DNA of 64,000 nucleotides from Thiocapsa bogorovii (lineage in GTDB: Bacteria > Pseudomonadota > Gammaproteobacteria > Chromatiales > Chromatiaceae). Of this stretch, positions 1-18,614 are shown piece after piece; position 1 is the first letter of the stretch; each line of letters begins with the position of its first letter. The notes under the pieces are model-generated. The model had not been told where the DNA came from, did no database searches, and saw only the letters and a list, made by a program, of their open reading frames with translations. The DNA is taken from NCBI RefSeq assembly GCF_021228795.1, contig NZ_CP089309.1, positions 1,488,001 to 1,552,000 of the forward strand, read 5' to 3'. The position numbers were made by a program, and so were the translations under genes.

Positions 1-52
1 CTTCCTCGTCCACGGCGTATTGCTTGCCCTCGACTTCGATCGTGTCTGACAT
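1..52 (-). CDS. dsrC: DsrC, N-terminal 17 residues only (runs off the window)
   Basis: Only the first 17 codons are present; they read MSDTIEVEGKQYAVDEE, matching the start of DsrC, the small sulfur-carrier protein that takes sulfur from DsrEFH and delivers a trisulfide to the Dsr pathway. It lies 28 bases downstream of dsrH on the same strand, as expected for the conserved dsrABEFHC order of purple sulfur bacteria. The C-terminal arm with the two redox cysteines is outside the window, so activity cannot be judged here. Confidence 0.9.
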   Translation of the reverse strand, partial: MSDTIEVEGKQYAVDEE

Positions 53-80
53 CTCGATGCTCCTATCGGTTTCTGAAAAA

Positions 81-389
81 CTACAACCAGGCCTGAACTT
101 TCCCGTTTTCCGCGGCAAGATCCACGAATCCGGCATAGTCCACGACGCTGATACCCTCGATGATGCGCTCCGCGGAGAAGCCGCGGGCCTGAAGGTCCGG
201 GCCTAGGACATAGACCTTCAGACGGCCGAGCGCATCGCTCACATGGGGCTCGACGGCGGTCCCCTTAAGGGCAGCATAAACGCCGTCTTCGAACAGCAAC
301 AAGGCCGAGCCGTCGGTGGCGAACTTCAGACAGGACTCAAGCGCATTACGCTCGAACGGCGACTTGTTGACGGTGTGCAGAATACTCAT
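81..389 (-). CDS. dsrH: DsrH, sulfur-relay protein
   Basis: 102-residue DsrH/TusB-family protein. Cys20, the family's conserved cysteine, is present in the motif RNALESCLKF. DsrH forms the cytoplasmic DsrE2F2H2 hexamer that passes sulfane sulfur to DsrC during oxidation of stored sulfur globules. The gene follows dsrF by 9 bases and precedes dsrC, so all are probably one transcript. Start chosen at the ATG read from 389, which gives the usual family length. Confidence 0.95.
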   Translation of the reverse strand: MSILHTVNKSPFERNALESCLKFATDGSALLLFEDGVYAALKGTAVEPHVSDALGRLKVYVLGPDLQARGFSAERIIEGISVVDYAGFVDLAAENGKVQAWL

Positions 390-398
390 GACGTCCCT

Positions 399-809
399 CT
401 AGAAGCTAAAGATCGCATCGGATTCGTTCATCAGCTCGCCGACGCGGGCCGAGTCGATCACTTCGACGATGTTCTCGATCTCTTCTTCGGTCTCGAAGTC
501 CTCCCAGGCGATCTCGACAAGATCCTCTTGGGTCAGACCGCGGGCCTCCAGCGAGGCACGGTCCACGTAAATCTTTTTGACCTCGTAGTCGCCCAGGGTC
601 CGGAATGTCGGCGAGAAGTTCTTCATGCCGATTGCTTTGGTGTCTTGGCCCTTGGTGAGCTGGTAGACCCCGTCGTCGAGGAACATCACGCTGACGTCTT
701 GATCGAAGGCGGCTCCGATCAGCACCACCTCCAGCGCCTCCCAGGCATAGATGGTCCCGTAAGGCGCCTTGCGGTTGAGGTACATGAATTTCTTCACGAC
801 TTCCGACAT
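399..809 (-). CDS. dsrF: DsrF, sulfur-relay protein
   Basis: 136-residue DsrF/TusC-family protein, beginning MSEVVKKFMYLNRKAPYG, typical of the family. It is the structural subunit of the DsrEFH sulfurtransferase complex; unlike DsrE it has no catalytic cysteine, and no cysteine is seen in this copy. It sits 12 bases after dsrE and 9 bases before dsrH, indicating co-translation within the dsr operon. Confidence 0.95.
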   Translation of the reverse strand: MSEVVKKFMYLNRKAPYGTIYAWEALEVVLIGAAFDQDVSVMFLDDGVYQLTKGQDTKAIGMKNFSPTFRTLGDYEVKKIYVDRASLEARGLTQEDLVEIAWEDFETEEEIENIVEVIDSARVGELMNESDAIFSF

Positions 810-821
810 CTCAACTCTCCT

Positions 822-1214
822 TTAGTCGCCGAAGACGACGAGACGGTCGGCTTGGATGGCCGCCTCGACCAGCTGCCCGAGTCCGGAGATACGGAACTTG
901 GGATGAATGTTGGTGGCATCCTTGCCGTTGCGGCTCGCTTCGCCCTCGTCGACGATGCCGCGGCGCTGAGCCGCGGCCACGCAGACGACCAGATCGAGAT
1001 TGTGCTGCTCGGCCAACTCCGCCCAACGGTTGACGATATGGCGGTCGTCCTGCGGCGGCGTCGTCAGACGCGTCGAGTTGTTGACCCCGTCATGATAGAA
1101 GAAGACCCGAAAGATCTCGTGCCCCTTCTCCAGTGCCGCCTTGGCAAAGTGATATGCCGAGTCGGATGACTGATGCTGATAGGGTCCCTCGTTGATCTGA
1201 AGTGCGAACTTCAT
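822..1214 (-). CDS. dsrE: DsrE, catalytic sulfurtransferase subunit
   Basis: 130-residue DsrE/TusD-family protein. The catalytic cysteine is Cys78 in LDLVVCVAAAQRRG, which carries persulfide and exchanges it with DsrC in the DsrEFH complex. A longer frame runs upstream to 1412, but the start MKFALQINEG at 1214 gives the family length and has a GAGAGG ribosome site a few bases before it. The gene follows dsrB by 53 bases. Confidence 0.95.
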   Translation of the reverse strand: MKFALQINEGPYQHQSSDSAYHFAKAALEKGHEIFRVFFYHDGVNNSTRLTTPPQDDRHIVNRWAELAEQHNLDLVVCVAAAQRRGIVDEGEASRNGKDATNIHPKFRISGLGQLVEAAIQADRLVVFGD

Positions 1215-1267
1215 GCCGACCTCTCGACTGATTGCGATAGCTCTTGAACCGATCCCGCAGCCCGCCT

Positions 1268-2338
1268 TTAGAAGCGGATGTAGGAGGAGCTGTTGAAGCT
1301 GGCCCGTGCGCCGCGCCAGGTATCGATATGATACTTGGTGAAGGGCAGCTCGACTTCTTCGAAGAAGCGGGGCCAGCCGATGCGCTCGATCCACTCGTTG
1401 ACCCGCTCCCAATCGCGCGCGCCCTCTTTATACGCCTTGAGAATACGCTTGACGATGGCGGTTGCCTCGGGCCAGCGCGGCGGGTTATTCGGGATGCCGG
1501 CCGCGACCAGTTTCTGGAAGGTTGGCTTACCGCGGGCGTTGGAGTGGTTGCCACCGACCCAGATCGCCAACTTGGAATGCTCGGCGTCGTTGATCTGCAT
1601 GGGCGGACAGGGCGGATAGCAGGCACCACAGCAGATGCACTTGCGCTCGTCGACTTCCAGCGAAGGCTTACCGTTGACCATGGCCGGGCGAATCGCTGCG
1701 ACCGGGCAACGCGCAACGACCGACGGACGCTCGCAGACGTTCGCAACCAGATCGTGATTGATCTTCGGTGGCTTGGTGTGCTGGATGTTGATCGCGATGT
1801 CGCCCTGACCGCCGCAGTTGATCTGGCAGCAGGACGTCGTGATGTGGACGCGATTGGGCATATTGGCGTTGCGGAACTCGTCGATGAGTTCGTCCATCAT
1901 GGACTTCACGACGCCCGATGCGTCGGTACCGGGGATGTCGCAGTGCAACCAACCCTGCGTGTGCGAGATCATCGCCACCGAGTTCTGGGTCCCGCCGACG
2001 ACGAAGCCGGCACCTTCCAACGTATCGATCAGGGGCTGTACTTTCGCCTCGTCCGTCACCATGTATTCGATGTTGGAACGCAGCGTGAAGTGCACATAGC
2101 CCTCGGCGAACTCATCGCCGATGTCGCACAGCTTGCGCAGGGTAAAGACATCGAGAATGCGCTGCGTTCCCGCCTTCACCGTCCAGATCTTGTCGCCGCT
2201 GTAGGCAACGTGGAGCAGGACTCCCGGACGAGGATGGTCGTGGTATTTCCACTGGCCGAAATTCTTGCGCATCATCGGATGCATATATTGCCAGGGATCA
2301 GGGCATCCGGATTCGATCGGCTCACGCATGTCTGCCAT
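1268..2338 (-). CDS. dsrB: Reverse dissimilatory sulfite reductase, beta subunit
   Basis: 356-residue beta subunit of the cytoplasmic sirohaem sulfite reductase, which in phototrophic sulfur oxidisers runs in the oxidative direction to make sulfite. Cys170/Cys171 and Cys175 lie in the sirohaem-[4Fe-4S] region, followed by a ferredoxin-like insert with the cluster CICCGACYPPCPP near residues 234-246. The start ATG at 2338 gives the expected length. It follows dsrA by 114 bases and is the partner of the DsrA chain in the alpha2beta2 enzyme. Confidence 0.97.
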   Translation of the reverse strand: MADMREPIESGCPDPWQYMHPMMRKNFGQWKYHDHPRPGVLLHVAYSGDKIWTVKAGTQRILDVFTLRKLCDIGDEFAEGYVHFTLRSNIEYMVTDEAKVQPLIDTLEGAGFVVGGTQNSVAMISHTQGWLHCDIPGTDASGVVKSMMDELIDEFRNANMPNRVHITTSCCQINCGGQGDIAINIQHTKPPKINHDLVANVCERPSVVARCPVAAIRPAMVNGKPSLEVDERKCICCGACYPPCPPMQINDAEHSKLAIWVGGNHSNARGKPTFQKLVAAGIPNNPPRWPEATAIVKRILKAYKEGARDWERVNEWIERIGWPRFFEEVELPFTKYHIDTWRGARASFNSSSYIRF

Positions 2339-2452
2339 CGCCTTAACTCCAATATTTCAGTCTGATGGTAAGTCAGTCGGCGGCACCCGTCAGTGCCTGC
2401 ACGTCGGGATCTCGCAGATCCGACGTGCGGCACTTGGGGCGTCGCTGCGGGT

Positions 2453-3706
2453 TTACTTGCCGGCTTCGGCTTGACGCTCGAACCACGACTCGGCCGCCTC
2501 GTCCCATCCGTCCAGCCGAACGTAGGAGCTTTGACGGGGATGGCTCAGCATGTTCGGATCCGGCTCGATGCCGATGCCGTCGAGGAAGTTGGCCAAGCCA
2601 ATCCGCTCGATCATCTCGCCGCAACGCTCATGCTCTAGACCGTTCTCAGCCCAGAAGTCAATGATCGTCTCGGCGAGCTCGACCATGGACTCGTAGTCCT
2701 CTTCGGTCTCGAGCTTCTTGAAGGGAACGACAACCGTACCCATCAGGTCGCCGATCTTGAGGGTACGCTTTCCGCCGATCAGGATGGTGACACCCTTGTC
2801 GTCTCCCGGATGCAGCGCCTTCGGCATCACGTTGAGGCAATGCATACAGCGCACGCAATCGCGATTATTGACCACCAACGTGTTGTCGTCGGTGAGGCTG
2901 AGCGCCTGAGTCGGGCAACGCGTGATGACATTGTCGATATAGTACTGACGGCCTTTATCGGCGATGTAGTTCTTGACCTCGGCTTGGTCGACCTTCATGT
3001 CGTCTCGCCAAGTGCCGAGCACGGCGAAATCCGAGCGCTCGATGGCGTTCTGGCAGTCGTTCGCGCAGCCGGAGACCTTGAACTTGAACTTGTACGGGAG
3101 GGCCGGGCGATGGACGTCGTCGACGAAGTTGTTGACCAGCGCTCGGTGTGCCTTGAGCTCGTTCGTGCAGGACATCTCGCAGCGAGCAGCACCGACGCAG
3201 GACATCGCCGTGCGGACACAAGGTCCGGCACCGCCGAGATCCCAGCCGTACTCGTTGATCTCGTCGAAGAAGTGCTGCGTATTCTGGGTGTCGGTGCCGA
3301 TGAACATGATGTTCCCGGTTTGACCGTGGAAGGTCACGAGGCCCGAGCCCCACTTCTCCCAACTGTCGGCCAATTGACGCAGCATGCCGGTTGAATAATG
3401 GTTACCCGCCGGCGGCTGAACGCGCAGCGTATGGAATTCTTTGGACTTCGGGAAGGCCTTGCCGACCTCGGAGAAGCGCGGAATGATCCCGCCGCCGTAC
3501 CCGAATACCGAAACGGTGCCGCCCTTCCAATAGCCCTTGCGGGTTTCGTATGAGTGCTCGAGCTGACCTAGCAGATCATTGGTCATCTCATTGATACGGG
3601 CGTCCGGATGCTCGTCGCGGAGACGCTTAATGCCCGAAATGAAACTCGGCCAGGGGCCGGTTTCGAGCTGATCAAGCATCGGGGTCGTGTGCTTCTCGAT
3701 AGCCAT
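2453..3706 (-). CDS. dsrA: Reverse dissimilatory sulfite reductase, alpha subunit
   Basis: 417-residue alpha subunit, first gene of the operon. The sirohaem-[4Fe-4S] ligands are visible as Cys170-X5-Cys176 and Cys214-X3-Cys218, and a ferredoxin domain with CVRCMHCLNVMP follows near residue 280. The sulfur-oxidiser type is inferred from the company of dsrEFH, which sulfate reducers lack, and from the puc genes in the same window. Start ATG at 3706 (MAIEKHTTPM); the operon promoter must lie in the roughly 400 bases to its right. Confidence 0.97.
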   Translation of the reverse strand: MAIEKHTTPMLDQLETGPWPSFISGIKRLRDEHPDARINEMTNDLLGQLEHSYETRKGYWKGGTVSVFGYGGGIIPRFSEVGKAFPKSKEFHTLRVQPPAGNHYSTGMLRQLADSWEKWGSGLVTFHGQTGNIMFIGTDTQNTQHFFDEINEYGWDLGGAGPCVRTAMSCVGAARCEMSCTNELKAHRALVNNFVDDVHRPALPYKFKFKVSGCANDCQNAIERSDFAVLGTWRDDMKVDQAEVKNYIADKGRQYYIDNVITRCPTQALSLTDDNTLVVNNRDCVRCMHCLNVMPKALHPGDDKGVTILIGGKRTLKIGDLMGTVVVPFKKLETEEDYESMVELAETIIDFWAENGLEHERCGEMIERIGLANFLDGIGIEPDPNMLSHPRQSSYVRLDGWDEAAESWFERQAEAGK

Positions 3707-3952
3707 GGCGCTGTCTCTCCGAATCAGAATGAAGCAGGAAGGGATCGGGATGTCGATAAAACCGAATCGGACATGTGTCGCTACGCAACCGATTCACCGA
3801 GTGTCTGGCCATGGCACGGGCTGGTTGGCGTACCTGCACAGCCGGCGCGCATCGGGCCCGAAGTCTTACCGAGACCCCATCGGCATTCGCTAAATTACCG
3901 GCTCTCGGGGCCGACGCCCATTCCACGATTGGGAGGGCCATCACCCCACGGA

Positions 3953-3970
3953 CTATCCCATTCGGGATAG
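3953..3970. promoter_or_regulatory. Palindrome in the dsrA / oxygenase divergent region
   Basis: A perfect inverted repeat, CTATCCC-ATTC-GGGATAG, lies about 250 bases before dsrA and 150 bases before the divergent oxygenase gene. It could be an operator for either transcript. No convincing -35/-10 pair was found for dsrA. The rest of 3707-4118 holds no gene that I can support. Confidence 0.35.
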
Positions 3971-4118
3971 AGGCATCAAGAGCGCCGCGGCGGGTGTCCT
4001 CCCGGTCGTTTTTGGCGGCGAACATGCTTGAGCAAATTGACAGGAGATGCTACATCCGGATGACTGCTAAGTCAACATTCACTAATATTCGAGTTTGCTC
4101 ATTCAGGGGGTGGACGCC

Positions 4119-5090
4119 GTGGACGACCCTTTCGATCTCTCGCAGACCAACGCTTATTCGAAGTGGAGGGCTCGGAAGCTGCGGGCTTACCCGGCCGAAA
4201 ACGCCGACCTGCGCGTTCCCGTCGGACGGCTCGATCAACCCACGCCGGAAGAGCGCGACGCGCTGAAGACCCGGATCGATACCTTCAATATGGCCCTGGT
4301 CGCGGTCGATCCCGCCGAGATCCAGACCGAAACTCTTCTGGCATTCACGCGGGCGCTCGGACTGCGGAGGGCGGATGCCAATCTGTTCGCCGACGCCTCT
4401 GCGGTGAGCCACATCGCCGCTTCACGAACTCACCCCGGTCGACCTCACTCCGGTCGAACCCACTCCGCTGGACCCAACCCCGGCGACGAGACGCGCGTGG
4501 ACACAGACCTCGAGCCTCCCGGCGGCACCACTCTCGGCGAATTCATCCCCTACACCGACAAGCCGCTGAGCTGGCATACCGACGGGTACTACAACACCAC
4601 GGACGAACAGGTCGGTGCCTGGTGCCTGTTCTGCGTCCGCGCCGCGCGTCACGGCGGGGAGAATGGCCTGATCGATCACGAGATGGCCTATCTGCAACTG
4701 CGCGATGAATCACCGCAGCACATCGCGGCACTCTCTCACCCGCAAGCCCTGACCATCCCGGCGCATGTTCAAGACGGGCGCACACGTCGGGCGGAAAGTG
4801 TCGGGCCGGTTTTCTCGGTGCGAAACGGACATCTGCACATGCGTTATTCGGCACGCGCACGCCATGTCCTCTGGCGCGACACGCCTGACACGCATGCGGC
4901 GCGAGCCGCGCTGGATCGGTTGTTTTCCCGCCCGGATGTCTTCACGTTCAGGTACAAGCTAAGGCCAGGTGAAGCGCTGGTGTCGAACAACGTCCTGCAC
5001 TGTCGCTCTGGCTTCGACGATGACGAGGATCCCGCGAAGGCGCGACTGCTCTATCGAATCCGTTTCCTGGATCGAATCGACCTCGACTGA
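4119..5090 (+). CDS. TauD/TfdA-family Fe(II)/2-oxoglutarate dioxygenase-like protein
   Basis: 323 residues from the GTG at 4119, chosen because GGGGGTGG lies about 6 bases before it; a TTG at 4095 and a GTG at 4110 are in frame upstream. Iron ligands of the TauD/gamma-butyrobetaine hydroxylase fold are visible: His153 and Asp155 in SWHTDGYYN and a distal His294 in NNVLHCRSGF, followed by an Arg-rich end (RLLYRIRFLD). Substrate unknown. A low-complexity insert made by a 15-bp repeat lies near residues 104-123. It is the first of five same-strand genes ending with a DsrC-like gene. It diverges from dsrA, so a sulfur link is possible but is inference. Confidence 0.85.
   Translation: MDDPFDLSQTNAYSKWRARKLRAYPAENADLRVPVGRLDQPTPEERDALKTRIDTFNMALVAVDPAEIQTETLLAFTRALGLRRADANLFADASAVSHIAASRTHPGRPHSGRTHSAGPNPGDETRVDTDLEPPGGTTLGEFIPYTDKPLSWHTDGYYNTTDEQVGAWCLFCVRAARHGGENGLIDHEMAYLQLRDESPQHIAALSHPQALTIPAHVQDGRTRRAESVGPVFSVRNGHLHMRYSARARHVLWRDTPDTHAARAALDRLFSRPDVFTFRYKLRPGEALVSNNVLHCRSGFDDDEDPAKARLLYRIRFLDRIDLD
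4429..4488 (+). repeat. Imperfect 15-bp tandem repeat inside the oxygenase gene
   Basis: Four consecutive 15-bp units (CTCACCCCGGTCGAC, CTCACTCCGGTCGAA, CCCACTCCGCTGGAC, CCAACCCCGGCGACG) keep the reading frame and encode the run HPGRP-HSGRT-HSAGP-NPGDE, a likely disordered insert before the catalytic core. Confidence 0.7.
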
Positions 5091-5246
5091 GGTTCGATCC
5101 CAAGCGACGCGCGTGCGCGGCCTTCGGTGTCGTCCTACCGCCAGACACCACGAAAACAACGAGGCAACGACTCGTGGCCGCAAGAACGCCGGCCGGGCGA
5201 AGGTCTCAACATCAACCCAACGACAAGGGAGCAGTAGCAGCGATCC

Positions 5247-5438
5247 ATGCTCAAGCTCAGCGAAATACTGGTTTCGAACCAAGACATCGAATCGTTCGAC
5301 GAGCTCGTCCCCGTCATCCAGGCGGTTGCGCGCTCTGGCGAGCGTTTTTTCAGGATGGACGTCAAGCCACCCTACCCGGATACCCCGGAAAACTGGGAGG
5401 ACCGCCTCGAGGCGGCCTTCAGCGGGCTCGTACGATGA
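5247..5438 (+). CDS. Small conserved-looking protein of unknown function
   Basis: 63 residues, MLKLSEILVSNQDIES..., acidic, without membrane segment, cysteine or signal. It does not match a family I recognise. An AGGGAG ribosome site lies about 16 bases before the ATG, longer than usual. It lies between the oxygenase (156 bases upstream) and the 239-residue protein (49 bases downstream), all on one strand, so it is probably part of the same transcript. Confidence 0.6.
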   Translation: MLKLSEILVSNQDIESFDELVPVIQAVARSGERFFRMDVKPPYPDTPENWEDRLEAAFSGLVR

Positions 5439-5487
5439 TCCCAGAGCCCAGATCCGAGCATCGCCCCGAACACGGGAAGGCGGCATC

Positions 5488-6207
5488 ATGAAACAGTTCG
5501 ACCTTCTGGCAACGCAGATCTCCGATACGGCGGCCGATTCGATCATCAATCGCAGCGCCGAGAACGCATCTCTCGAGTCGCACTTGAAGGTGCAGCAGGA
5601 TCAGCTGCAAAACCTGATTCGGATCCATGCGCCGGCGCACGCGGTCGCAGACGCCCGGCTGCAGGTCGCACGTACACTGGTGAGCCTGGAGCGGGGAGAG
5701 GAGGCTTGGCCGCTCGGGCGCGCGGCCTTCGACCATTTCATTGCGCACGACTCCTTCGAGCTTGCCGCAGACGCCTGCGATGTCTTGTTTCAGGCTGGCC
5801 AAGAGGAATCTCTTGTTGCGCTCGGCCAAGGAATCTGGCTGGCAGTGACATGCCCAATCGATCCGGAGCTGACGATCGAGCTTCTGAGCCACGTGATCGA
5901 CGATACGCCCGACGACGCCGACGGCGCCGCAGTGGCCGCGACCACTGCGCTATTCATCGCCGACGTGCGTGCCCGAGACCGTCAACGCGACGATCTGATG
6001 TTCTTCGCGACACAAATGCTCGGCATGGTTGCTCGGCGACACAGCGGCGTCGATACGCCCGAGCAGCTCGAGCACTGGATGGAGCGCCTCGAGCTCAAGG
6101 AGCCGGAGAAGTTCTTGGTCCGCTTGCGTAACGTCGTTGATGTTCTGGTTCAAGATGACTGGTGGTTCGACCGCCGAGCACTGCAGGATCGTCTCCCGTT
6201 CGCATAA
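5488..6207 (+). CDS. Helical repeat-like protein of unknown function
   Basis: 239 residues from ATG 5488, preceded by GGAAGG. The sequence is rich in alternating helices (HAVADARLQVARTLVSLE; DSFELAADACDVLFQAG), reminiscent of a TPR-like solenoid, but no canonical TPR consensus is seen, so this is only a fold guess. No signal peptide or membrane segment. It lies 59 bases before the Cas6/Cmx6-like gene and probably shares its transcript. Confidence 0.7.
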   Translation: MKQFDLLATQISDTAADSIINRSAENASLESHLKVQQDQLQNLIRIHAPAHAVADARLQVARTLVSLERGEEAWPLGRAAFDHFIAHDSFELAADACDVLFQAGQEESLVALGQGIWLAVTCPIDPELTIELLSHVIDDTPDDADGAAVAATTALFIADVRARDRQRDDLMFFATQMLGMVARRHSGVDTPEQLEHWMERLELKEPEKFLVRLRNVVDVLVQDDWWFDRRALQDRLPFA

Positions 6208-6266
6208 CCGGATGCCCGCCTGATCAGGCCCTGAACCACACCCAAGCGCACCCACGGACAACGACG

Positions 6267-6968
6267 ATGTTTTGGAATGACGACGACAGCAACGACCGGA
6301 TTCGCGTGCCCGACGACATTGTCGATCTCCTCTTCGGGATCGACTGCAAATGCATCCCGGTGGACCACGCCTACCTACTCGCCGAGGCGCTGCGACAAAC
6401 GCTGCCCTGGATTGCCGAGGAGCCCGGTGTCGCCGTGCACTCGGTGCACGTTGCCGGTTCACAGAACGGATGGGAGCGACCCGAGCACGGGACTGACTCC
6501 TATCTCGCCGTCTCCCGGCGGACCAAGCTGACTCTGCGGGTTCCCCGACACCGCGTCCCAGAGCTGCTGCGCGATCTTCCCGGGGCCAAGCTCGATCTCG
6601 GCGGAGAGACACTCGTCGTCGGCGCGGGCAAGGCCAAGCCGTTGAGCACCGAGACCACCCTGTTCTCTCGATATGTTGCGCTCGATCTCGCCGACCGGGC
6701 GGGCGAAGACGAGAGTGTCTTTCTCGAGACCGCCGCGCGCGCCCTCGCCGAGATGGACATCCGCGTGCGCAAGGCCGTCTGCGGCAGGACCAACCGGCTC
6801 GCCACGCCCGAGGGCTCCATCCCGACACGCAGCCTGATGCTCGCCGGACTCACGCCCGACGAATCCATCCGGCTTCAGCAACGGGGACTCGGTCGCCACC
6901 GCCTCCTCGGTTGCGGCATCTTCATCCCCCATAAGGGCGTCGACTCGGTCAAACAGAGCCAGGGCTGA
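6267..6968 (+). CDS. Stand-alone Cas6/Cmx6-like (type I-MYXAN family) protein
   Basis: 233 residues. The C-terminus has a glycine-rich loop ending in a conserved-looking tail, GLGRHRLLGCGIFIPHK (residues 207-223), which I recognise as typical of the Cmx6 branch of the Cas6 endoribonucleases. The N-terminus has PVDHAYLL with His34, a possible active-site histidine. Cas6 proteins normally cut CRISPR precursor RNA, but no CRISPR array and no other cas gene is present in these 64 kb; the neighbours are an oxygenase, two unknowns and a DsrC-like protein. The name therefore reflects family resemblance, and the substrate may be unrelated to CRISPR. Confidence 0.7.
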   Translation: MFWNDDDSNDRIRVPDDIVDLLFGIDCKCIPVDHAYLLAEALRQTLPWIAEEPGVAVHSVHVAGSQNGWERPEHGTDSYLAVSRRTKLTLRVPRHRVPELLRDLPGAKLDLGGETLVVGAGKAKPLSTETTLFSRYVALDLADRAGEDESVFLETAARALAEMDIRVRKAVCGRTNRLATPEGSIPTRSLMLAGLTPDESIRLQQRGLGRHRLLGCGIFIPHKGVDSVKQSQG

Positions 6969-7164
6969 GCGCGACTCGCCGCCGGTCTTATCCGAAAAGA
7001 CACGCTTGCCCCGAGCGCGCTGCGGCGTCGCACCGTAGCCGCCGAACACCCTCCGCTCCAGGCACCTCGGGTGCCCGCCTCCCCAGACTCGGACCACCGC
7101 AGCCGCAGACTCGAAAAACGACGGCGCGCAAAAAAATGTGACGAGTGCATCACAAAATCATAAG

Positions 7165-7191
7165 ATTAGGAAGTTTGAATCAAACCCTAAT
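7165..7191. promoter_or_regulatory. Nested palindrome upstream of the DsrC-like gene
   Basis: A 27-bp two-armed palindrome: ATTAGG, two bases, GTTTGA, one base, TCAAAC, CCTAAT. It lies 61 bases before the ATG of the DsrC-like gene in an AT-rich island (about 7120-7200) that stands out from the GC-rich surroundings. The position and symmetry suggest an operator for a dimeric regulator. No Rho-independent T-tract follows, so it is less likely to be a terminator. Confidence 0.6.
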
Positions 7192-7252
7192 GACGGGTAC
7201 ATCGTCACGCGTATTGACTGTACCCCGCCGAACAAAGACGAGAGGAGCAACC

Positions 7253-7591
7253 ATGGCCATCGAAGTCAATGGCAAGACCGTCGAGACGACCCCAAGCGGC
7301 TACCTTCAGGATCTCGCAGACTGGAGCGAAGATGTCGCGCTTAAGCTCGCCGAAATCGAGGGCATCACCTTGACCGACAAGCACTGGGACGTTATCAACT
7401 ATCTGAGGGAAGAGTACTACGACAACGCCCAAAACCAACCCATGGAGCGCGTGGTTCTAAAAGAGATGGCCAAGAAGTGGGGGTCCAAACCCACGAGCAA
7501 GGACCTCTACACCCTCTTCCCCCTTGCGCCGACCAAACAAGGCACCAAGATCGCGGGCTTGCCCGAGGTGCTGCGCAAGGGCGGTTACTGA
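7253..7591 (+). CDS. DsrC-family protein lacking both C-terminal cysteines (RspA-type)
   Basis: 112 residues from ATG 7253, which has GAGGAG just upstream; a longer frame to 7145 crosses the palindrome and is less likely. The DsrC/TusE fold is clear: SGYLQDLADWSEDVALKLAEIEG, TDKHWDVINYLREEY and LYTLFPLAPTKQG. The C-terminus reads IAGLPEVLRKGGY, so the penultimate cysteine and the one ten residues before it are both missing (Thr/Gly and Gly there). Such cysteine-free members have been called RspA and are thought to be regulatory rather than sulfur carriers. It has its own palindromic upstream site, and the dsr operon lies about 3.5 kb away. Confidence 0.88.
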   Translation: MAIEVNGKTVETTPSGYLQDLADWSEDVALKLAEIEGITLTDKHWDVINYLREEYYDNAQNQPMERVVLKEMAKKWGSKPTSKDLYTLFPLAPTKQGTKIAGLPEVLRKGGY

Positions 7592-8004
7592 CGCGACCGG
7601 CATTGCCCGCCGGACGATCCACGGACGGATCGAACACCTCCCCGGGGTCACCGGGGACAAGCCTTCGCAACAGCTACAATCGACCCGGATCCCGGCCGCG
7701 CAAGACCCCTTCTTCCATCCCGCGCCCCCTTCCGATTCTCGCGGATCCGACGCAAGGAACCTCACGAGCCCCTCCCGACGATTTCGCGCACGCCGTCCGA
7801 CACTGACCGCGACACGAATGACAACGACTCGATCCTCCGCGACCTCCACCTGAGCATGCTCGCGCCACGCGCCCTGCGTTTGCGCGTGATTCGTCGATGA
7901 TCCGGGCCACCCCCCAACCGGTGTCCGCTTCGCGTGATCGAGATCCATGTTCCAGGGTTCGCCGGAGAAAGATTCGCCTTTACTCCAAGATCGATGCCAT
8001 ATAT
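7592..8004. other. Gene-free stretch before the porin
   Basis: No supportable gene. Short frames here lack ribosome sites and resemble no family. The last part is the porin promoter region: TTTACT at 7979-7984, a 17-base spacer and TATAAA at 8002-8007. Confidence 0.5.
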
Positions 8005-8026
8005 AAATGCGAACGATTCCTATTTG
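8005..8026 (+). promoter_or_regulatory. Fur-like box before the porin gene
   Basis: AAATGCGAACGATTCCTATTTG, overlapping the proposed -10 element (TATAAA, 8002-8007) 28 bases before the porin ATG. It matches 18 of 21 bases of the box before hemP (15306-15326) and most of the box before bfd (22888-22910). Two of these three targets are iron genes, so control by the iron regulator Fur is inferred. Confidence 0.6.
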
Positions 8027-8053
8027 TTTTCGTATCGGCATGGAGTTTCGGAT

Positions 8054-9262
8054 ATGTATCCCATCGAATACCCGACTCGCCGAGGGCTCGCATTGGCCGC
8101 GCTCGCCTCGGGTCTGTTGGCTACCTTCGCCTCGCCGAGTCGGGCCTACGAGCTGAACGACCGCGTCTCGCTCGGCGCAGTCTTGGCTGCGGCGGGGCAG
8201 TGCCAGGAGGGTCTCGGCGGCTCGGTCGATGCCGACGGCCAGGAGCGCGCCGAGAACAGCTGCCGCGGCGGCATGCCGTTCCAGCTCGCGCTCGACGTTC
8301 GCCCGAGCGCCCGCGACGAACTCTACGTCCTGCTAGGCTTCGCCGTCGAAGACGGCCTGAACGCGATCTCGCCCTTCGTGCTCGCCCCCTGGGCGGTCGA
8401 TCTCGAGGACGATCTTCAGGACATCAACGGGCGCGGGCGCGACCACCTGCTGCAGGTCTGGTACAAACACACCTTCACCCTGGGCGAGGACGCCACCCTC
8501 GGCACCACCTTCGGCATCATCGACTCCACCGCCTATCTGGACGAGAACGCCTACGCCAACGACGAGTTCACCCAGTTCATGAACGAGGCGTTCGTGAACT
8601 CCGGCGGCTTCAATCTGCCCTCCTACGACGCCGGCGCGGCGCTCGAGCTCGCGCTGGGAGACTGGGAGATCAAGGTCGCGGCGCTGAACATCGGCGAGAA
8701 CGACGACGGCAACAACTACAACTTCTGGGGCGCGCAGCTCGGCTATCGGCTCGCCACCGCACTCGGGGAGGGCCAATACCGCGCCGTGATGACCGGAACC
8801 TCAACGGCTTTCTTCGAGCCGCGCCCGGAGCGCGGCGAGGAGACGGACGGGCCCGAGAACGCAGGGCCGCTCGCTGCCGAGGACACCCCTGAAAAGACCG
8901 ACCTGATGGGCTACGGCCTGTCCTTCGACCAGGCCCTCGGTGATCGTGTCGGTGCCTTCCTGCGCCTGGCCTGGACCGACCACCAGGGCATCCTGGACTA
9001 CCGCGGACTCTACACCGGCGGTCTGCAGCTCGGCGGCGGCCTCTGGGGCCGCGAGGCCGATACCGTCGGCATTGCCTACGGCTATCTCGACGGCGCCGAT
9101 ACCGGGATCACCAACACGAACGTCGCCGAACTCTATTACCGCTTCGCCGCCAACGACGTGCTCGCCCTCACCGCCGACATCCAGTACATGGCCGACGCCT
9201 ACGACAGTGGCGAGGACATCGATGGCTGGATCTTCGGTATGCGCCTGGTCGCGGAGCTTTGA
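8054..9262 (+). CDS. OprB-like outer-membrane porin
   Basis: 402 residues from ATG 8054 (MYPIEYPTRRGLALAALA), chosen because a signal peptide with cleavage near SRAYELN follows; an in-frame ATG at 7934 would put 40 extra residues before it and include the promoter. The mature part alternates short beta strands and aromatic-ended segments and ends in a C-terminal strand, DGWIFGMRLVAEL, as in porins of the OprB/carbohydrate-porin group. Transport specificity is unknown; the Fur-like box at the start suggests an iron-linked role. A damaged relative of the same protein lies at 16297-16460. The gene is followed by a copy of the 83-bp repeat. Confidence 0.75.
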   Translation: MYPIEYPTRRGLALAALASGLLATFASPSRAYELNDRVSLGAVLAAAGQCQEGLGGSVDADGQERAENSCRGGMPFQLALDVRPSARDELYVLLGFAVEDGLNAISPFVLAPWAVDLEDDLQDINGRGRDHLLQVWYKHTFTLGEDATLGTTFGIIDSTAYLDENAYANDEFTQFMNEAFVNSGGFNLPSYDAGAALELALGDWEIKVAALNIGENDDGNNYNFWGAQLGYRLATALGEGQYRAVMTGTSTAFFEPRPERGEETDGPENAGPLAAEDTPEKTDLMGYGLSFDQALGDRVGAFLRLAWTDHQGILDYRGLYTGGLQLGGGLWGREADTVGIAYGYLDGADTGITNTNVAELYYRFAANDVLALTADIQYMADAYDSGEDIDGWIFGMRLVAEL

Positions 9263-9275
9263 TGAAACCGCGATG

Positions 9276-9359
9276 AAACCGCGTCCGGTGCGTCATGCCT
9301 TGTTGCCGGGATCGTTCGCCTCGCGGCGACCAAAGAACCGCTGGAGCCGACGCGGTTTC
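9276..9359. repeat. 83/84-bp inverted-repeat element, copy A
   Basis: Starts AAACCGCGTC and ends GACGCGGTTT, a perfect 10-bp terminal inverted repeat, 13 bases after the porin stop. It shares its inner left end (CCGGTGCG.. ATGC) and right end (AGC.GACGCGGT) with copy B at 45653-45735, and its terminal arms with copy C at 51298-51380. All three are 83-84 bp and follow genes directly. Confidence 0.65.
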
Positions 9360-9540
9360 ATGATCTTAAAAACGATCTCCTGAACCGCGTCGCGCCGAGG
9401 CTGCTCTCGGGCTAGAGGGCCGAAAACACCTCGGAGCGCACGTCTCGCGGGGCACGCGGTTCAGTTGCGGTTCAGTTGCGAATTGCCGGGATGGCCGCAT
9501 GCATACTGTAACGACTCCCAGACGACAGCAGACCAGCCGC

Positions 9541-11028
9541 ATGACTCAGCAGGCCATTCGCTTCCCGTTCGACAACAGTTATCGACGTCTCCCGGATCAT
9601 TTTCACGCCCGCATCCACCCCACGCCCGTTACGGCGCCCGGCTTGATCAAGCTGAACGGGGCGCTGTTCGAAGAGCTCGGCCTGGATCCATCGGCGGCGG
9701 AGCCGGAAGTGGCTGCGCTGCTTTTCGCCGGCAATCTCCTGCCGGACGGCGGCGAGCCGATCGCGATGGCGTACGCGGGCCATCAGTTCGGCAACTTCGT
9801 CCCGCAGCTCGGCGACGGCAGGGCGATCCTGATCGGCGAGGTGGTCGACCGAGCCGGGAAGCGTCGCGACATCCAACTGAAGGGCTCCGGACAGACGCCC
9901 TTCTCACGCAGCGGCGACGGGCGCGCGGCGCTCGGACCTGTCCTGCGCGAATATATCCTTGCCGAGGCGATGCACGCGCTCGGGGTTCCAACCACCCGTG
10001 CGCTCGCCGCCGTCACGACGGGCGAGCCGGTCTATCGCGAGACGATCCTACCCGGCGCCATCCTGACACGCGTCGCGAGCAGCCATATTCGCGTCGGGAC
10101 CTTCCAGTATTTCGCCTCGCGCGGCGACACCCGGGCCGTGCGGCATCTCGCCGATCACGTCATCGCTCGCCATTTCCCGGAAGCCGCCCTGGCCGACTCG
10201 CCCTATCTCGCGCTGATCGAAGCCGTCTTGGAGCGACAAGCCGCCCTGGTCGCCGCCTGGATGCACGTGGGTTTCATCCACGGCGTCATGAACACCGACA
10301 ACATGGCGATCTCGGGCGAGACGATCGATTACGGGCCCTGCGCCTTCATGGACGCCTATGACCCGGCCACCGTCTTCAGCTCGATCGACCGCGGCGGCCG
10401 GTACGCGTACGGCAATCAGCCGGGAATTGCCCAGTGGAACCTCGCACGCTTCGCCGAGACCCTGCTGCCCCTGATCGACGGGGCATCTGACGCCGCAATC
10501 CAACAGGCGACCGACTTGATCCGCAGCTTCTTCGGCCGCTACGAAGAGCACTGGACCGCCGGCATGCGACGCAAGCTCGGCCTCGCCTCCAGCGAGCCGG
10601 ACGATGTCGATCTCATCCATGGGCTCTTGGACGTCATGAAGGCATCGGGGGCCGATTTCACACTGACCTTCCGCCGCCTCTGCGACGCGGCCGCGGATCC
10701 ACGGGCAGACAGCGGCGTCAGGGATCTGTTCGTCGACCCGCAAGCCTATGACGCCTGGTCCGCGCAGTGGCGCGCGCGTCTCGAACGGGATCCGCAAACC
10801 CCCGCCGAGCGTGCCGAGCGGATGCGCCAAACCAATCCGGCGGTCATTCCGCGCAACCATCGCGTCGAGCAGGCGCTGAATGCGGCCGTCGAGCAGAATG
10901 ACTTCGGACCATTCGAAACCATCCTGCACGTCCTCGCGCGCCCCTACGAGGATCGGCCCGAGCTCGCCGGCTACACCGAGCCGCCGCAGGAGAAGGAGCG
11001 TGTCTTGAGGACCTTCTGCGGGACCTGA
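9541..11028 (+). CDS. selO: Protein adenylyltransferase SelO (YdiU family)
   Basis: 495 residues from ATG 9541 (MTQQAIRFPFDNSYRRLP), the usual family start; an ATG at 9499 is also in frame. SelO is a pseudokinase-fold enzyme that transfers AMP from ATP to protein hydroxyl groups in redox-stress responses. Hallmarks seen: AYAGHQFGNFVPQLGDGRA, the Lys in IQLKGSGQTPFSRSGDGRA, the catalytic-loop region HGVMNTDNMAISGETIDYGPCAF and the conserved end RTFCGT with its cysteine. A 12-bp direct repeat (TTCAGTTGCGGT region, 9458-9481) precedes it. No operon partner is evident. Confidence 0.93.
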   Translation: MTQQAIRFPFDNSYRRLPDHFHARIHPTPVTAPGLIKLNGALFEELGLDPSAAEPEVAALLFAGNLLPDGGEPIAMAYAGHQFGNFVPQLGDGRAILIGEVVDRAGKRRDIQLKGSGQTPFSRSGDGRAALGPVLREYILAEAMHALGVPTTRALAAVTTGEPVYRETILPGAILTRVASSHIRVGTFQYFASRGDTRAVRHLADHVIARHFPEAALADSPYLALIEAVLERQAALVAAWMHVGFIHGVMNTDNMAISGETIDYGPCAFMDAYDPATVFSSIDRGGRYAYGNQPGIAQWNLARFAETLLPLIDGASDAAIQQATDLIRSFFGRYEEHWTAGMRRKLGLASSEPDDVDLIHGLLDVMKASGADFTLTFRRLCDAAADPRADSGVRDLFVDPQAYDAWSAQWRARLERDPQTPAERAERMRQTNPAVIPRNHRVEQALNAAVEQNDFGPFETILHVLARPYEDRPELAGYTEPPQEKERVLRTFCGT

Positions 11029-11134
11029 GCCAACACTGTCGGAGAAGACCGATCATCATCCATTCGGAAGTAGCGCTTCCTTTTTGGAAGCATATCTTCA
11101 AAATAACAACACATTGTTTTTAATTTGGTTATTT

Positions 11135-11169
11135 CGGATTTCACCCAAATCGACGACGAACCCAAATCC
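11135..11169 (+). promoter_or_regulatory. Candidate activator-binding repeats upstream of a sigma-54 promoter
   Basis: CCCAAATC occurs twice in direct orientation (11144-11151 and 11161-11168, 17 bases apart), and GGATTT at 11136-11142 pairs with AAATCC at 11164-11169. The cluster is 45-75 bases upstream of the sigma-54 promoter at 11211, a sensible place for an enhancer site of the activator encoded at 12314. Confidence 0.4.
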
Positions 11170-11210
11170 AACCACTACACTAAGCTATTGATGATGATCG
11201 TATCCCACCC

Positions 11211-11226
11211 TGGCGCAATCTTTGCC
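11211..11226 (+). promoter_or_regulatory. Sigma-54 (-24/-12) promoter
   Basis: TGGCGCA-ATCT-TTGCC matches the sigma-54 consensus TGGCACG-N4-TTGCW, with GG and GC ten bases apart. Transcription would start near 11237, giving a leader of about 50 bases before ATG 11285. A sigma-54 activator gene lies three genes downstream in the same direction. Confidence 0.75.
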
Positions 11227-11284
11227 GCGCTCCGGTTGCCGTTCTCGGCCAACCAGAACACCAACTGAGGGTGGGAGAAACGCG

Positions 11285-11938
11285 ATGAGCTATCTGAAAG
11301 ACGAGATCAACGCACGTGTCGATGCCTATGACCATTGGGCGACGCGCCGCCGCTACGGTCCGGACGGCCCCAACAATCGCAGACTCTGGGTATTGGCCTG
11401 TATGGACGAACGCCTGCCGGTCGATGAAGCGCTCGGGATTCGGGTCGATAGCCCGGTCGGCGGCGGCGATGCCCATTGCTTCCGAAACGCCGGCGGGATC
11501 GTCACGGACGACGCGATCCGATCGGCGATGCTCACCTGCAATTTCTTCGGAACACAGGAGATCGTTATCGTCCAACATACCCAATGCGGGATGTTGTCTG
11601 CGAACGCCAAGGACCTGGAAGCGGCCCTCCGGGCCAAAGGCGTCGACATCGACGCGCTGGCTCTGGATCCGACCTTGCCCGAGTTGAAGCTCGATCCGGG
11701 CGGCTTCGCGAAATGGATCGGGATGATGGACGATGTGGACGTGACCTGCATGAAGACGGTGGAGACCTTCCGAAATCACCCGCTGATTCCGAAGGACGTG
11801 GTCGTCAGCGGCTGGGTCTGGGAGGTGGAGACCCGGCGCTTGCGCCCGCCGGTACTCGATGACGAGAAGCGTGCCCGCACGGATGTCACCTCCGCGCAGT
11901 TCGGCGTCACGACGCCGCAACCCAACCGCTGGCGTTGA
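11285..11938 (+). CDS. Beta-carbonic-anhydrase family enzyme, possible carbonyl sulfide hydrolase
   Basis: 217 residues. Zinc ligands and dyad of beta-carbonic anhydrases are present: Cys39-X-Asp41-X-Arg43 in VLACMDERLP, His98 and Cys101 in VQHTQCGM, plus HCFRNAGG near residue 64. The small size, the insert ALEAALRAKGVDIDAL and the lack of the usual long N-terminal helix place it in the divergent group that includes the COS hydrolases of Thiobacillus; the choice between CO2, COS and CS2 as substrate is inference. It stands first behind a sigma-54 promoter, with a zinc-ribbon protein and a sigma-54 activator following. GGTGGGAG before the ATG is a good ribosome site. Confidence 0.8.
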   Translation: MSYLKDEINARVDAYDHWATRRRYGPDGPNNRRLWVLACMDERLPVDEALGIRVDSPVGGGDAHCFRNAGGIVTDDAIRSAMLTCNFFGTQEIVIVQHTQCGMLSANAKDLEAALRAKGVDIDALALDPTLPELKLDPGGFAKWIGMMDDVDVTCMKTVETFRNHPLIPKDVVVSGWVWEVETRRLRPPVLDDEKRARTDVTSAQFGVTTPQPNRWR

Positions 11939-12027
11939 TCGAAACGGCGCCCGGCTCGGGCGCCGATTTCCCTCGCCGCACGAGCCTTGCTCGACGACGA
12001 GCGTTGAAATCAAAAGGGAGTCATCCG

Positions 12028-12270
12028 ATGCCGCTCTACGACTACCAGTGCACCTGCTGCCAAGCCTCCTTCGAGACCTCGCGGGCCATGACCGCCGAGC
12101 CGCCGCCCTGTCCCGCCTGCGGGGGCGTAACGGCTCGGGTCTTTCTCTCCGCCCCGGCAGTACACGGCCGCATGGCCCAGGGGCGCGATCAGGCCGTTCG
12201 CTCGCTGCAGCCTGCCGACACGCCGCAGACGCACAGACACGGCCCCGGATGCGGGTGCGGGCACGCGTGA
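12028..12270 (+). CDS. FmdB-family zinc-ribbon protein
   Basis: 80 residues. MPLYDYQCTCCQASFE begins the FmdB/CxxC zinc ribbon, with the second pair in PPCPACGG; a His/Cys-rich tail, HRHGPGCGCGHA, follows and may bind metal. FmdB proteins are small putative regulators often found beside amide and small-sulfur-compound genes. AAAGGGAG lies 7 bases before the ATG. It follows the carbonic-anhydrase-like gene by 89 bases and precedes the activator by 43, so all three probably form one unit. Confidence 0.85.
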   Translation: MPLYDYQCTCCQASFETSRAMTAEPPPCPACGGVTARVFLSAPAVHGRMAQGRDQAVRSLQPADTPQTHRHGPGCGCGHA

Positions 12271-12313
12271 TGGCCGTTTCTTTTTTCGACCGAGAACGTT
12301 GACGGCATCGAAC

Positions 12314-13882
12314 ATGCCCGAAACGACCGATTCACCGTCACGCGCGGTCGCTTTTCTCCAATCCTTCGTGTCCGAGATCGCCAAGGCGATGGATCGGGCC
12401 GAATGTCCCAATTGTGCCGCTCACCTCGAGCACATCGAGCAGATCGGCTTGACGGCCGGTGTTTGCCTCGAGGAAAAGGCGCGCGAGGTTCTCGGCTCTT
12501 CGCAGCCGATGGACCGGGACCAATACGCTGACCTGATCGTCGAGATCAAGAATCAGATCGGCGGGCGATTTTCCCGCGCCTCCGGCGAGGCCGGGATGGT
12601 TCGGGTCGTCAACAGCCGCTGCCCCTTCGGCGAGCAGGTCAGACATGCACCCTCGCTCTGCCGGATGACGTCGAGCGTCTTCGGCGGAATCGCCGCGCGC
12701 CACTTCGGCTATGCGAAGGTGGAGTTGCGACAGACGATCGCGGGCGGGGATGGCTCCTGCGATGTCTGCATCTATCTGGATCCGCAGCTTGCCGCACGCA
12801 ACGAGGGGACCGAGTACCGGGCGGACGGCGAGCGCCTGACCTCGGGAAACCTCACGACACTCATGACACCCAAGGTTCGGCGGCGACTGCGCGAGAACTG
12901 GTGCCCGCCGCCGGTCGGAATCGGCAGCCCCGATGCAGCCCTGCAGCCGATCGTCGCGGAGTCGGCGGCCATGCGCGATGCCCTGCGGGCCGTCCGGATC
13001 GTGGCCCCCACGGACGTGACCGTCATGATCACCGGCGAAACCGGCTGCGGGAAAGAGTTGGTCGCACGCGCACTGCATGGGCTCAGCGCCCGTCGCGACA
13101 AGCCGATGGTCACGGTCAACTGCGGGGCCATCCCCGAGAACCTGGTCGAAACGGCCCTCTTCGGACATGAGAAAGGTGCCTTCACGGGCGCCTACGAGGT
13201 CCACCATGGTTACTTCGAACGGGCCGAAAAAGGGACGCTTTTCCTCGACGAGATCGACTCGCTCCCGCTTTCGGCACAGGCCAAGTTGTTGCGTGTCATC
13301 CAGGAAGGCGAGTACGAACGCGTCGGCGGCAAGCGCTCTCTGCGTTCGGACGTCCGGATCATCGCCGCATCCAACCGTGAGATCGTGGCGCTGGTCGACG
13401 CCGGACATTTTCGCCGCGACCTCTTCTATCGACTCAACGTGGTACCGATCGCGATCCCGCCCTTGCGCGAGCGCACCGAGGACATCGACGCCCTGATCAG
13501 GCACATCCTCCGCAAGCTCGCCCAACGCTACGCCACGACCGAAAAGACATTGGTTCAAGCCGCTCGCCTGAAAGCCTTCTCCTACCCCTGGCCGGGCAAC
13601 ATTCGGGAGATGGAAAACGTCCTCGAGCGTGCCTTCATCTTCGCCGCCGATGCTCGGATTACAGACATCGACGTCCCGGTGACTGTGCCGAGCGAACCCG
13701 TCCCGGCATGGCGCGCGCGCAAACAGCAAGCCGCCAAGCAGGCCGAGGTCGACACGCTCGTCCGGGCCTTGGAGGTCAGTCACGGCAATGTCGATCAAAT
13801 CGCGACTCAGATGGGGATCACGCCGCGAGCGGTCCGCATGAAGCTCAAGGCGCAAGGACTCAGGGCTGCGGACTACAGGTAG
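12314..13882 (+). CDS. Sigma-54-dependent transcriptional activator with cysteine-rich sensor
   Basis: 522 residues from ATG 12314 (a TTG at 12299 is also in frame). The N-terminal third is a cysteine-rich sensor, with CPNC, CPFGEQVRHAPSLC and CDVCIYL, resembling the MetOD1/V4R-type input domain. The central AAA+ domain has Walker A GETGCGKE, the sigma-54 contact motif GAFTGA, Walker B GTLFLDEID and the arginine-finger region FRRDLFYRLNV. A Fis-type helix-turn-helix ends the protein (GNVDQIATQMGITPRAVRMKLK). Expected to act at the sigma-54 promoter 1.1 kb upstream. Ligand unknown; a metal or a small sulfur compound fits the cysteines and the neighbours. Confidence 0.9.
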   Translation: MPETTDSPSRAVAFLQSFVSEIAKAMDRAECPNCAAHLEHIEQIGLTAGVCLEEKAREVLGSSQPMDRDQYADLIVEIKNQIGGRFSRASGEAGMVRVVNSRCPFGEQVRHAPSLCRMTSSVFGGIAARHFGYAKVELRQTIAGGDGSCDVCIYLDPQLAARNEGTEYRADGERLTSGNLTTLMTPKVRRRLRENWCPPPVGIGSPDAALQPIVAESAAMRDALRAVRIVAPTDVTVMITGETGCGKELVARALHGLSARRDKPMVTVNCGAIPENLVETALFGHEKGAFTGAYEVHHGYFERAEKGTLFLDEIDSLPLSAQAKLLRVIQEGEYERVGGKRSLRSDVRIIAASNREIVALVDAGHFRRDLFYRLNVVPIAIPPLRERTEDIDALIRHILRKLAQRYATTEKTLVQAARLKAFSYPWPGNIREMENVLERAFIFAADARITDIDVPVTVPSEPVPAWRARKQQAAKQAEVDTLVRALEVSHGNVDQIATQMGITPRAVRMKLKAQGLRAADYR

Positions 13883-13908
13883 AGTCGCGACGGCTGCGCC
13901 GTCGCTCG

Positions 13909-14941: not shown

Positions 14942-15275
14942 CTGCCAAAAGACGACGCCGACCTTGTGATAGGCAAAGTCTTAGCGCCGGAAACACTTGA
15001 CCTGCTCGTCGAACAGTGGACCAGAGGACAGGGTGCCGATGTTCAGGCCCGTCCACCGAAGATGCCCTGGATTCTGCCAGGTTTCACCAAGTATCGGGGA
15101 ATGCGATGGAGAACGTGCTGTGCGTCCTGTCGTCGGAACCTGCGAGAGCCAGCCAGGCCGAGGTCAATTCCGCGCAGGCATTCGATCACTGCGCAGATCC
15201 AACTCGACGGATTCGGCCGCGACGAAGGCCGACGGAGATCACCGGAATGATCGCAAAGATGATCGCGGGGGCGAC

Positions 15276-15326: not shown

Positions 15327-15353
15327 TATAACGACTCGCCCGGAGTGACGGCC

Positions 15354-15542: not shown

Positions 15543-15591
15543 CCGAGCAGACGCGTCCTCGCCGAGCCGTCGCCCGTATCCACAACCCTCA

Positions 15592-18600: not shown

Positions 18601-18614
18601 GTCACGCGTAGGCA

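Follow-up and report, generated by a model that had tools for sequence, protein, structure and literature searches.

Within Gammaproteobacteria a stand-alone Cas6-like protein is a near one-to-one companion of DsrA, the alpha subunit of the reverse dissimilatory sulfite reductase (rDsr). The example from which this work starts lies in a window of 64,000 nucleotides of Thiocapsa bogorovii (contig NZ_CP089309.1, positions 1,488,001 to 1,552,000), where five consecutive + strand genes at 4119-7591 code for a TauD-type oxygenase, a 63-residue protein (p63), a 239-residue protein (p239), the Cas6-like protein and a DsrC homologue ending in KGGY (KGGY-DsrC), divergently from dsrA and dsrB. We tentatively read this row as an accessory module of rDsr sulfur oxidation with a Cas6-fold protein at its centre, which was perhaps exapted from CRISPR biology or else goes back to a common ancestor with CRISPR Cas6. 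The evidence consists of association, linkage, fold and residue changes, from which we infer the mechanism.

An earlier reading of the window, made from its letters alone (the sequence-only reading), had described this row, its divergence from dsrA and the absence of CRISPR genes around it. All five open reading frames and the family matches were recovered, and dsrA was found on the opposite strand. The neighbours are dsr genes, no direct-repeat array of at least 20 bases was found in window positions 1-20000 (the rest of the genome was not searched for arrays), and the sole cas1-like match in the whole genome, a single contig of 5.65 Mb, is weak and about 360 kb distant. The nearest named relatives of the host by Cas6 protein are Thiocapsa species.

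Association of the Cas6-like gene with dsrA

The window Cas6 protein was matched in 37 of 56 genomes (its own and those of relatives), nearly always as one copy each. In an even sample of 370 gammaproteobacterial genomes, each at least 85% complete, the Cas6 family PF09559 was present in 124 and DsrA (TIGR02064 score exceeding the cut-off; fragments were accepted at E <1e-50) in 123. Both were found in 118 genomes, Cas6 only in 6, DsrA only in 5 and neither in 241 (Fisher p = 5e-82; the p value is overstated since related genomes are not independent, and the counts themselves are the evidence). For eight of the 11 mismatches the contig ends short of the partner's usual place, either on the dsr side of Cas6 (genomes G098, G121, G153, G301 and G331) or on the Cas6 side of dsrA (G136, G149 and G229, of which G149 retains p63 and TauD). 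A second draw of 397 genomes of the phylum contained Cas6 in 6 and a strong DsrA in 40, and within the window's class the Cas6-positive and the DsrA-positive genomes are the identical 6.

The neighbourhood was tabulated for two sets of 80 loci each, a genus-level set (L038-L117) and a named set (L132-L211). The named set holds the best 80 of 537 confirmed relatives and so is weighted towards Chromatiaceae and related groups, and it has four genomes in common with the genus-level set. In the paired counts that follow, the genus-level set is given first and the named set second, for loci with enough flanking sequence. The dsrA gene is divergent from the module in 61/72 and 57/64 loci, and where the two are neighbours the median distance between the starts of dsrA and Cas6 is 1.8 kb (10-90% range 1.4-2.6 kb, n=140). 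On the 5' side of Cas6 we find p63 in 59/72 and 62/64 loci, TauD in 52/72 and 33/64 (possibly an undercount, as the search used the window protein alone) and p239 in 27/72 and 51/64, while the DsrC-like gene is 3' of Cas6 in 61/79 and 55/67. The trio of p63, Cas6 and the DsrC-like gene occurs jointly in 51/71 and 43/54 loci. The complete five-gene set is found in only 19/71 and 20/54, therefore the set seen in the window is one version of a variable module. The neighbourhood as such is conserved far beyond chance, and the neighbours of these Cas6 copies outside CRISPR loci are mostly dsrAB, p63 and DsrC-like genes; a lack of such conservation in other genomes, which would have refuted the sequence-only reading, is not what we see. 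Its suggestion of a link with sulfur metabolism is strongly supported by the co-occurrence counts and by the mostly divergent placement beside dsrAB.

Adjacency to dsrA has exceptions. All 11 genus-level copies that sit away from it (L041, L045, L050, L057, L070, L074, L091, L093, L101, L107 and L111; upstream flank at least 4.5 kb) are in DsrA-positive genomes, and 7 named copies with enough flank are also away from dsrA (the genome-wide search for DsrA covered the genus-level set). The four more divergent copies L118-L121, which perhaps come from Betaproteobacteria, also adjoin dsrAB, with the DsrC-like gene and TauD 3' of Cas6. In two Candidatus Thiosymbion loci (L145 and L149) the Cas6-like gene has at least 9 kb of upstream sequence without dsrA, TauD, p63 or p239, and L149 retains the DsrC-like gene; the module is therefore broken up in some symbionts. 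Two further families are frequent near Cas6: a second Fe(II)/2-oxoglutarate oxygenase family (PF13640 in the representative, L094:9451-10743), about 2 kb downstream in 40/81 loci, and a family whose representative matches DUF6866 (L058:8591-10402), about 4 kb downstream in 34/81.

Outside the class 34 genomes were DsrA-positive, and we inspected ten of them (L231-L240). Six rDsr-type loci, L231-L236, probably from Alphaproteobacteria as far as the class can be inferred, resemble the gammaproteobacterial arrangement in that p63 is divergent from dsrA in 5/6 and TauD is present in 4/6 (L235 offers only about 1.1 kb of upstream sequence). They differ in carrying a DUF6967 gene by p63 in the place of Cas6, and no KGGY-DsrC. 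DUF6967 (PF22295), for which no mention was found in the open-access literature searched, adjoins p63 in L231-L234 and L236, and it adjoins Cas6 in L118-L121, L042, L046 and L058. In the remaining loci, L237-L240, which we take as having sulfate-reducer-like DsrAB, the module was not found; L237 has one 54-bit p239-like match several kb from dsrA. TauD and p63 thus seem to be older rDsr companions, and Cas6, p239 and KGGY-DsrC a gammaproteobacterial extension.

Table 1. Features of the dsr locus and the adjoining gene row (window positions)
Feature	Position	Strand	Basis or remark
dsrH	81-389	-	open reading frame list; after dsrB
dsrF	399-809	-	open reading frame list; after dsrB
dsrE	inside 822-1412	-	open reading frame list; after dsrB
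dsrB	1268-2338	-	PF01077/PF03460 matches
dsrA, reverse-Dsr sulfite reductase alpha	2453..3706	-	TIGR02064 668 bits
Palindrome CTATCCC-ATTC-GGGATAG	3953..3970	.	dsrA/TauD divergent region; probable DNA operator
TauD/TfdA-family Fe(II)/2-oxoglutarate oxygenase	4119..5090	+	PF02668 E=1.2e-18
p63, 63-residue acidic protein	5247..5438	+	no Pfam match; very strongly conserved
p239, very acidic, predicted all-helical, possibly TPR-like solenoid (239-residue open reading frame)	5488..6207	+	AF2 model; no Pfam match
Stand-alone Cas6-fold protein (Cmx6-like) with S-x-N-G-W-x-R-P insertion	6267..6968	+	PF09559 E=2e-64
Cysteine-free DsrC paralogue, C-terminus RKGGY	7253..7591	+	PF04358 E=2.9e-34

The names dsrE, dsrF and dsrH were given by position and by the usual dsr gene order. 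The start codon of the TauD gene is uncertain, as its open reading frame opens at 4095; the HxD...H metal site is present in the translation (WHTD, with the distal His in VLHCR).

The proteins of the module

The AlphaFold2 (AF2) model of the Cas6-like protein (pLDDT 90.8, pTM 0.87) consists of two ferredoxin-like halves. The top Foldseek match is the Cas6 of a type I-B CRISPR-associated transposon (8fcj_B, template modelling score (TM) 0.74/0.80, E 4.2e-16), followed by Pyrococcus furiosus Cas6 and other Cas6 structures, and 8fcj_B is also the sole solved structure matched below E 0.001 in a sequence-profile search. The predicted structure therefore has the tandem ferredoxin-like Cas6 fold, as the sequence-only reading had supposed. 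On the sequence level the protein scores 124.4 bits against TIGR02807, with a cut-off of 98.85.

The alignment comprises 169 copies, one of which is the CRISPR copy L122 (four genomes enter it twice). His34, a candidate catalytic residue, is kept in 166/168 copies (167/169 with L122) and in 7/7 CRISPR controls; the equivalent residue of 8fcj_B is Asn, and L057 also has Asn at position 34. For the RNase-like character proposed in the sequence-only reading the observations point both ways: the candidate histidine, a putative catalytic residue, is there in 166/168 and is lost in L121 and L057. Arg91 is found in 169/169 and Arg85 in 168/169 copies, and together with His34, Lys169 and the glycine-rich C-terminal loop they are near invariant. 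The S-x-N-G-W-x-R-P insertion has its Trp69 in 164 copies, and only L118-L122 are without this residue.

It is useful to compare the dsr-type protein with CRISPR Cas6. The controls were L122 and six cyanobacterial plasmid Cas6 proteins annotated beside cas3. L122 is a second Cas6 in G002, a genome of the same genus, where it coexists with a dsr-type copy, so that the two form a natural control pair. Its neighbours are cas3 (above the cut-off of both TIGR01587 and TIGR01596) and Cmx8 (TIGR04413, 423 bits against a cut-off of 150), and this locus is a true type I-MYXAN system; its Cas6 scores 189.8 against TIGR02807, as opposed to the 124.4 of the window protein. Both kinds of protein share the fold, the glycine-rich C-terminal loop and a D-H pair opening helix 1 (7/7 CRISPR controls). 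On the other hand, the dsr-type protein has no CRISPR locus, carries the extra insertion, is acidic where CRISPR Cas6 is basic, is a near-constant companion of dsrA, and falls into a separate clade: the 7 CRISPR rows split from 41 dsr-type rows at 100/99 and in 100% of 200 bootstraps. A role in CRISPR or immunity was rejected in view of the dsr neighbours, the separate clade, the lack of an array in window positions 1-20000 and the distant, weak cas1-like match, and the co-occurrence with DsrA and the linkage to dsrAB strongly support what the sequence-only reading had said on this point.

The DsrC-like protein matches its family over the whole length and keeps the C-terminal arm (TIGR03342 105.7 bits, cut-off 53.5), whereas it stays below the TusE equivalog cut-off (92 against 191). 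In contrast to DsrC and TusE its arm ends in KGGY, not GCV or GCI, and both redox cysteines are replaced: the aligned segment reads KQGTKIAGLPEVLRKGGY in the window protein and KQACRFAGLPKPTGCV in the genome's true DsrC (KQAC...GCV). The window protein contains no cysteine at all, as had been noticed from the sequence. The host genome has seven DsrC homologues (L001-L007), of which only the window copy ends in KGGY; the C-termini of the seven include GCV twice, KGGY, TKGEH, CHSC and others. Among downstream DsrC-like proteins the ending RKGGY or TKGGY is found in 60/61 genus-level copies, the one exception being a shortened sequence, and RKGGY in 55/55 named copies, while those of L118-L121 end in GKGGY. 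No cysteine is present from the aligned part to the end in 105/116.

A Pfam search gave no match for p63 and p239. The AF2 model of p239 is all-helical (pLDDT 91.3), in agreement with the sequence-only reading, and kinesin light chain tetratricopeptide repeat (TPR) structures match it weakly (TM about 0.5, no E <0.001). An NCBIfam hit of p239 to choline-sulfatase (E 0.012) was dismissed as noise, with 14.5 bits against a cut-off of 433. Strong purifying selection acts on the Cas6-like protein, the DsrC-like protein and p63: in genomes of the Thiocapsa group the median ratio of nonsynonymous to synonymous substitution rates (dN/dS) is 0.017 for DsrA, 0.020 for p63, 0.066 for the DsrC-like protein, 0.071 for p239, 0.171 for Cas6 and 0.186 for TauD, and 0.319 for a neighbouring porin.

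Palindrome and hairpins

The palindrome between dsrA and TauD is the sole exact copy in the host genome. It was scored over its 14 stem positions in 141 dsrA upstream regions (four genomes are included twice), and a score of at least 11/14 was reached in 126/141 regions against 11/141 shuffled ones, and of at least 13/14 in 84/141 against 0 shuffled. It is not present at L231-L240 (8-10/14), and at L118-L121 it is not clearly over background (9-11/14). Unlinked second dsrAB copies have it as well: upstream of L241, L243, L245 and L246 (4/6) the score is 12-13/14, while L242 and L244 score 11 and 10. The presence of the palindrome at unlinked copies points to a trans-acting factor. In the gap between Cas6 and the DsrC-like gene a score of at least 12/14 was seen in only 4/132 loci (0 shuffled).

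We also considered whether the palindrome is an RNA target of the Cas6-like protein. This was rejected, as the loop occurs in both orientations and the mismatches have the pattern that a DNA palindrome would give: in sites scoring at least 11, read in the Cas6 sense, there are 45 A-C, 31 G-U and 93 other non-Watson-Crick pairs, many at the outermost pair. Because the loop orientation and the mismatch pattern fit a DNA palindrome, CTATCCC-N4-GGGATAG was re-read as the probable DNA operator of a trans-acting regulator. Passages of one paper report that DsrC of Allochromatium vinosum binds DNA upstream of dsr (PMC5944118), therefore DsrC or its KGGY paralogue is a candidate regulator at the palindrome.

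Strong hairpins (dG below -10) are found in the dsrA|dsrB gap in 93/129 loci and after dsrC in 116/123, and a T-run follows in only 7/93 and 16/116 of these, respectively. The mean folding z is -1.75 and -2.47 at the two places, compared to 0.17 and -0.24 in coding controls. A similar hairpin lies 3' of the DsrC-like gene in 88/133 loci (windows of 120 nucleotides were used after dsrC and after the DsrC-like gene). These hairpins are possibly mRNA stabilisers, terminators or processing sites.

What the module may do

The module very probably functions in sulfur oxidation, and we lean slightly towards a regulatory rather than a catalytic role. We speculate that a Cas6-fold protein was taken from CRISPR biology, or descended from a common ancestor with CRISPR Cas6, into a module that would tune Dsr instead of performing Dsr chemistry. 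KGGY-DsrC would keep the docking surface of DsrC and would hardly be able to carry sulfur; it might act as a non-reactive mimic on the partners of DsrC (DsrAB, DsrEFH, DsrMK) or on dsr DNA. Since it has the DsrC fold and the arm and lacks the carrier cysteines, it perhaps mimics or regulates the partners of DsrC. The Cas6-like protein and p63, with p239 where present, may form a complex with KGGY-DsrC, in which the Cas6-like protein would bind or cleave RNA in a restricted way, the most likely targets being the dsr mRNA or its own transcript. The most economical explanation for KGGY-DsrC together with a Cas6-fold protein, a TPR-like partner and a putative operator would be a complex that regulates the expression of Dsr or the flux through it. 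The kept His and Arg residues favour a retained RNA role. A classical Cas6 nuclease is less likely, since the protein is acidic and no shared RNA substrate was found, and we place RNA binding by the present-day protein at a little below an even chance; the RNA-linked regulation proposed in the sequence-only reading is possible on the evidence of these residues. A bolder version, which we regard as unlikely, is that the Cas6-like protein and KGGY-DsrC form one switch that senses the state of the Dsr sulfur relay and targets dsr RNA or the palindrome DNA in nearly all rDsr Gammaproteobacteria.

There are several observations that weigh against an accessory module with a retained RNA function. 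PF09559 was found in 0/34 DsrA-positive genomes of other classes in the 397-genome draw, and neither Cas6 nor KGGY-DsrC was found in the six rDsr-type loci L231-L236, therefore the pathway works without Cas6. Three mismatches in the gammaproteobacterial sample (G315, G363 and G233) are not explained by contig ends: other members checked of the genus of G315 need not have Cas6 adjoining dsrA (see L057), the sole strong DsrA of G363 has a score resembling that of an unlinked second dsrA in G172, a genome of the same genus, and in G233 about 9 kb of sequence 5' of dsrA holds no module. The dsr-type proteins have a median isoelectric point (pI) of 6.1 (4.8-9.2, n=80) as compared to 9.3-10.3 in the 7 CRISPR Cas6 proteins, and L121, which adjoins dsrAB, has lost both His34 and His58. 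At least one cysteine remains in 11/116 downstream DsrC-like proteins, in some of them outside the redox positions, and that of L120 retains the cysteine at the first redox position. Finally, no common RNA substrate of the Cas6-like protein was found among the dsr-operon hairpins: the stems at different sites of one genome are not alike (score 5.66, against 5.43 between genomes), and Cas6-free loci also have hairpins (dsrA|dsrB z below -2 in 3/6), and on these two grounds the hairpins give no support to a link with Cas6.

Several of these points would suit a Cas6 fold that has lost its RNA function and serves as a scaffold or assembly factor, e.g. in the maturation of DsrAB or of a DsrC-partner complex, where p239 would be the TPR adaptor and KGGY-DsrC a placeholder. 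The acidic pI shared by the Cas6-like protein, p239, p63 and the DsrC-like protein, the TPR-like shape of p239, the state of L121 and the absence of the insertion from the CRISPR homologue L122 agree with this; however, the near-invariant H34, R85, R91, K169 and glycine-rich loop exceed the needs of a bare scaffold, and we consider it somewhat unlikely, though a serious candidate. It is quite improbable, in our opinion, that the protein is an RNase processing the polycistronic dsr mRNA, with cuts at the hairpins of the dsrA|dsrB gap and after dsrC that would set the subunit ratios. The frequency of these hairpins, their rare T-runs and low folding z, and the comparable hairpin 3' of the DsrC-like gene speak for such an enzyme, but the dissimilar stems, the hairpins of Cas6-free loci and the acidic protein argue against it.

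The fact that TusE is within the DsrC family and that Cas6 is an RNA-binding fold also brings to mind an RNA sulfuration route of the TusE/MnmA kind, in which the Cas6-like protein binds tRNA and the DsrC-like protein delivers sulfur; both sulfur-carrying cysteine positions are gone from the window protein, however, and its score is far from the TusE cut-off, which makes this very improbable. A similarly low probability applies to genes that merely accompany dsr, whether through vertical inheritance or through transfer, and share no function with it: linkage alone cannot prove function and the association ends at the class border, yet the 11/11 unlinked genus-level copies in DsrA-positive genomes and the strong purifying selection argue against it. 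We give hardly any credence to a CRISPR remnant or a solo Cas6 serving a distant array, a reading that is suggested by the Pfam, NCBIfam and PADLOC names. The clade stands apart, even though a sister genome has a second Cas6 by cas3 and Cmx8, no array lies in the part of the window searched, and the co-occurrence is with DsrA.

The rDsr cluster dsrABEFHC of purple sulfur bacteria would thus have a module mostly divergent beside it, with a conserved palindrome between the two. No description of Cas6 in a dsr locus was found in the open-access literature, the search not extending to subscription journals, and passages of related papers mention Cas6 only in ordinary CRISPR contexts. The passages of PMC5944118 list a DsrC-like protein, THSYN_22565, with a tag close to that of the dsr cluster, and do not list the rest of the module. 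The novelty lies in the combination, as the single folds are already known and tested defining features of CRISPR Cas6 and of DsrC/TusE fail here. To our knowledge the described dsr genes include none of the five, and we know of no system that joins Cas6-fold and DsrC-family proteins.

Purple sulfur bacteria and many chemosynthetic symbionts oxidise sulfur by reverse Dsr, a pathway whose gene set usually passes for largely known. As the window protein passes TIGR02807, annotation pipelines label it a CRISPR protein, and automatic annotations and Cas6 counts in genomes of rDsr Gammaproteobacteria are misleading. Current models may lack a step in the control or assembly of Dsr or in RNA handling, and the DsrC copy without carrier cysteines provides a direct handle on the function of the module.

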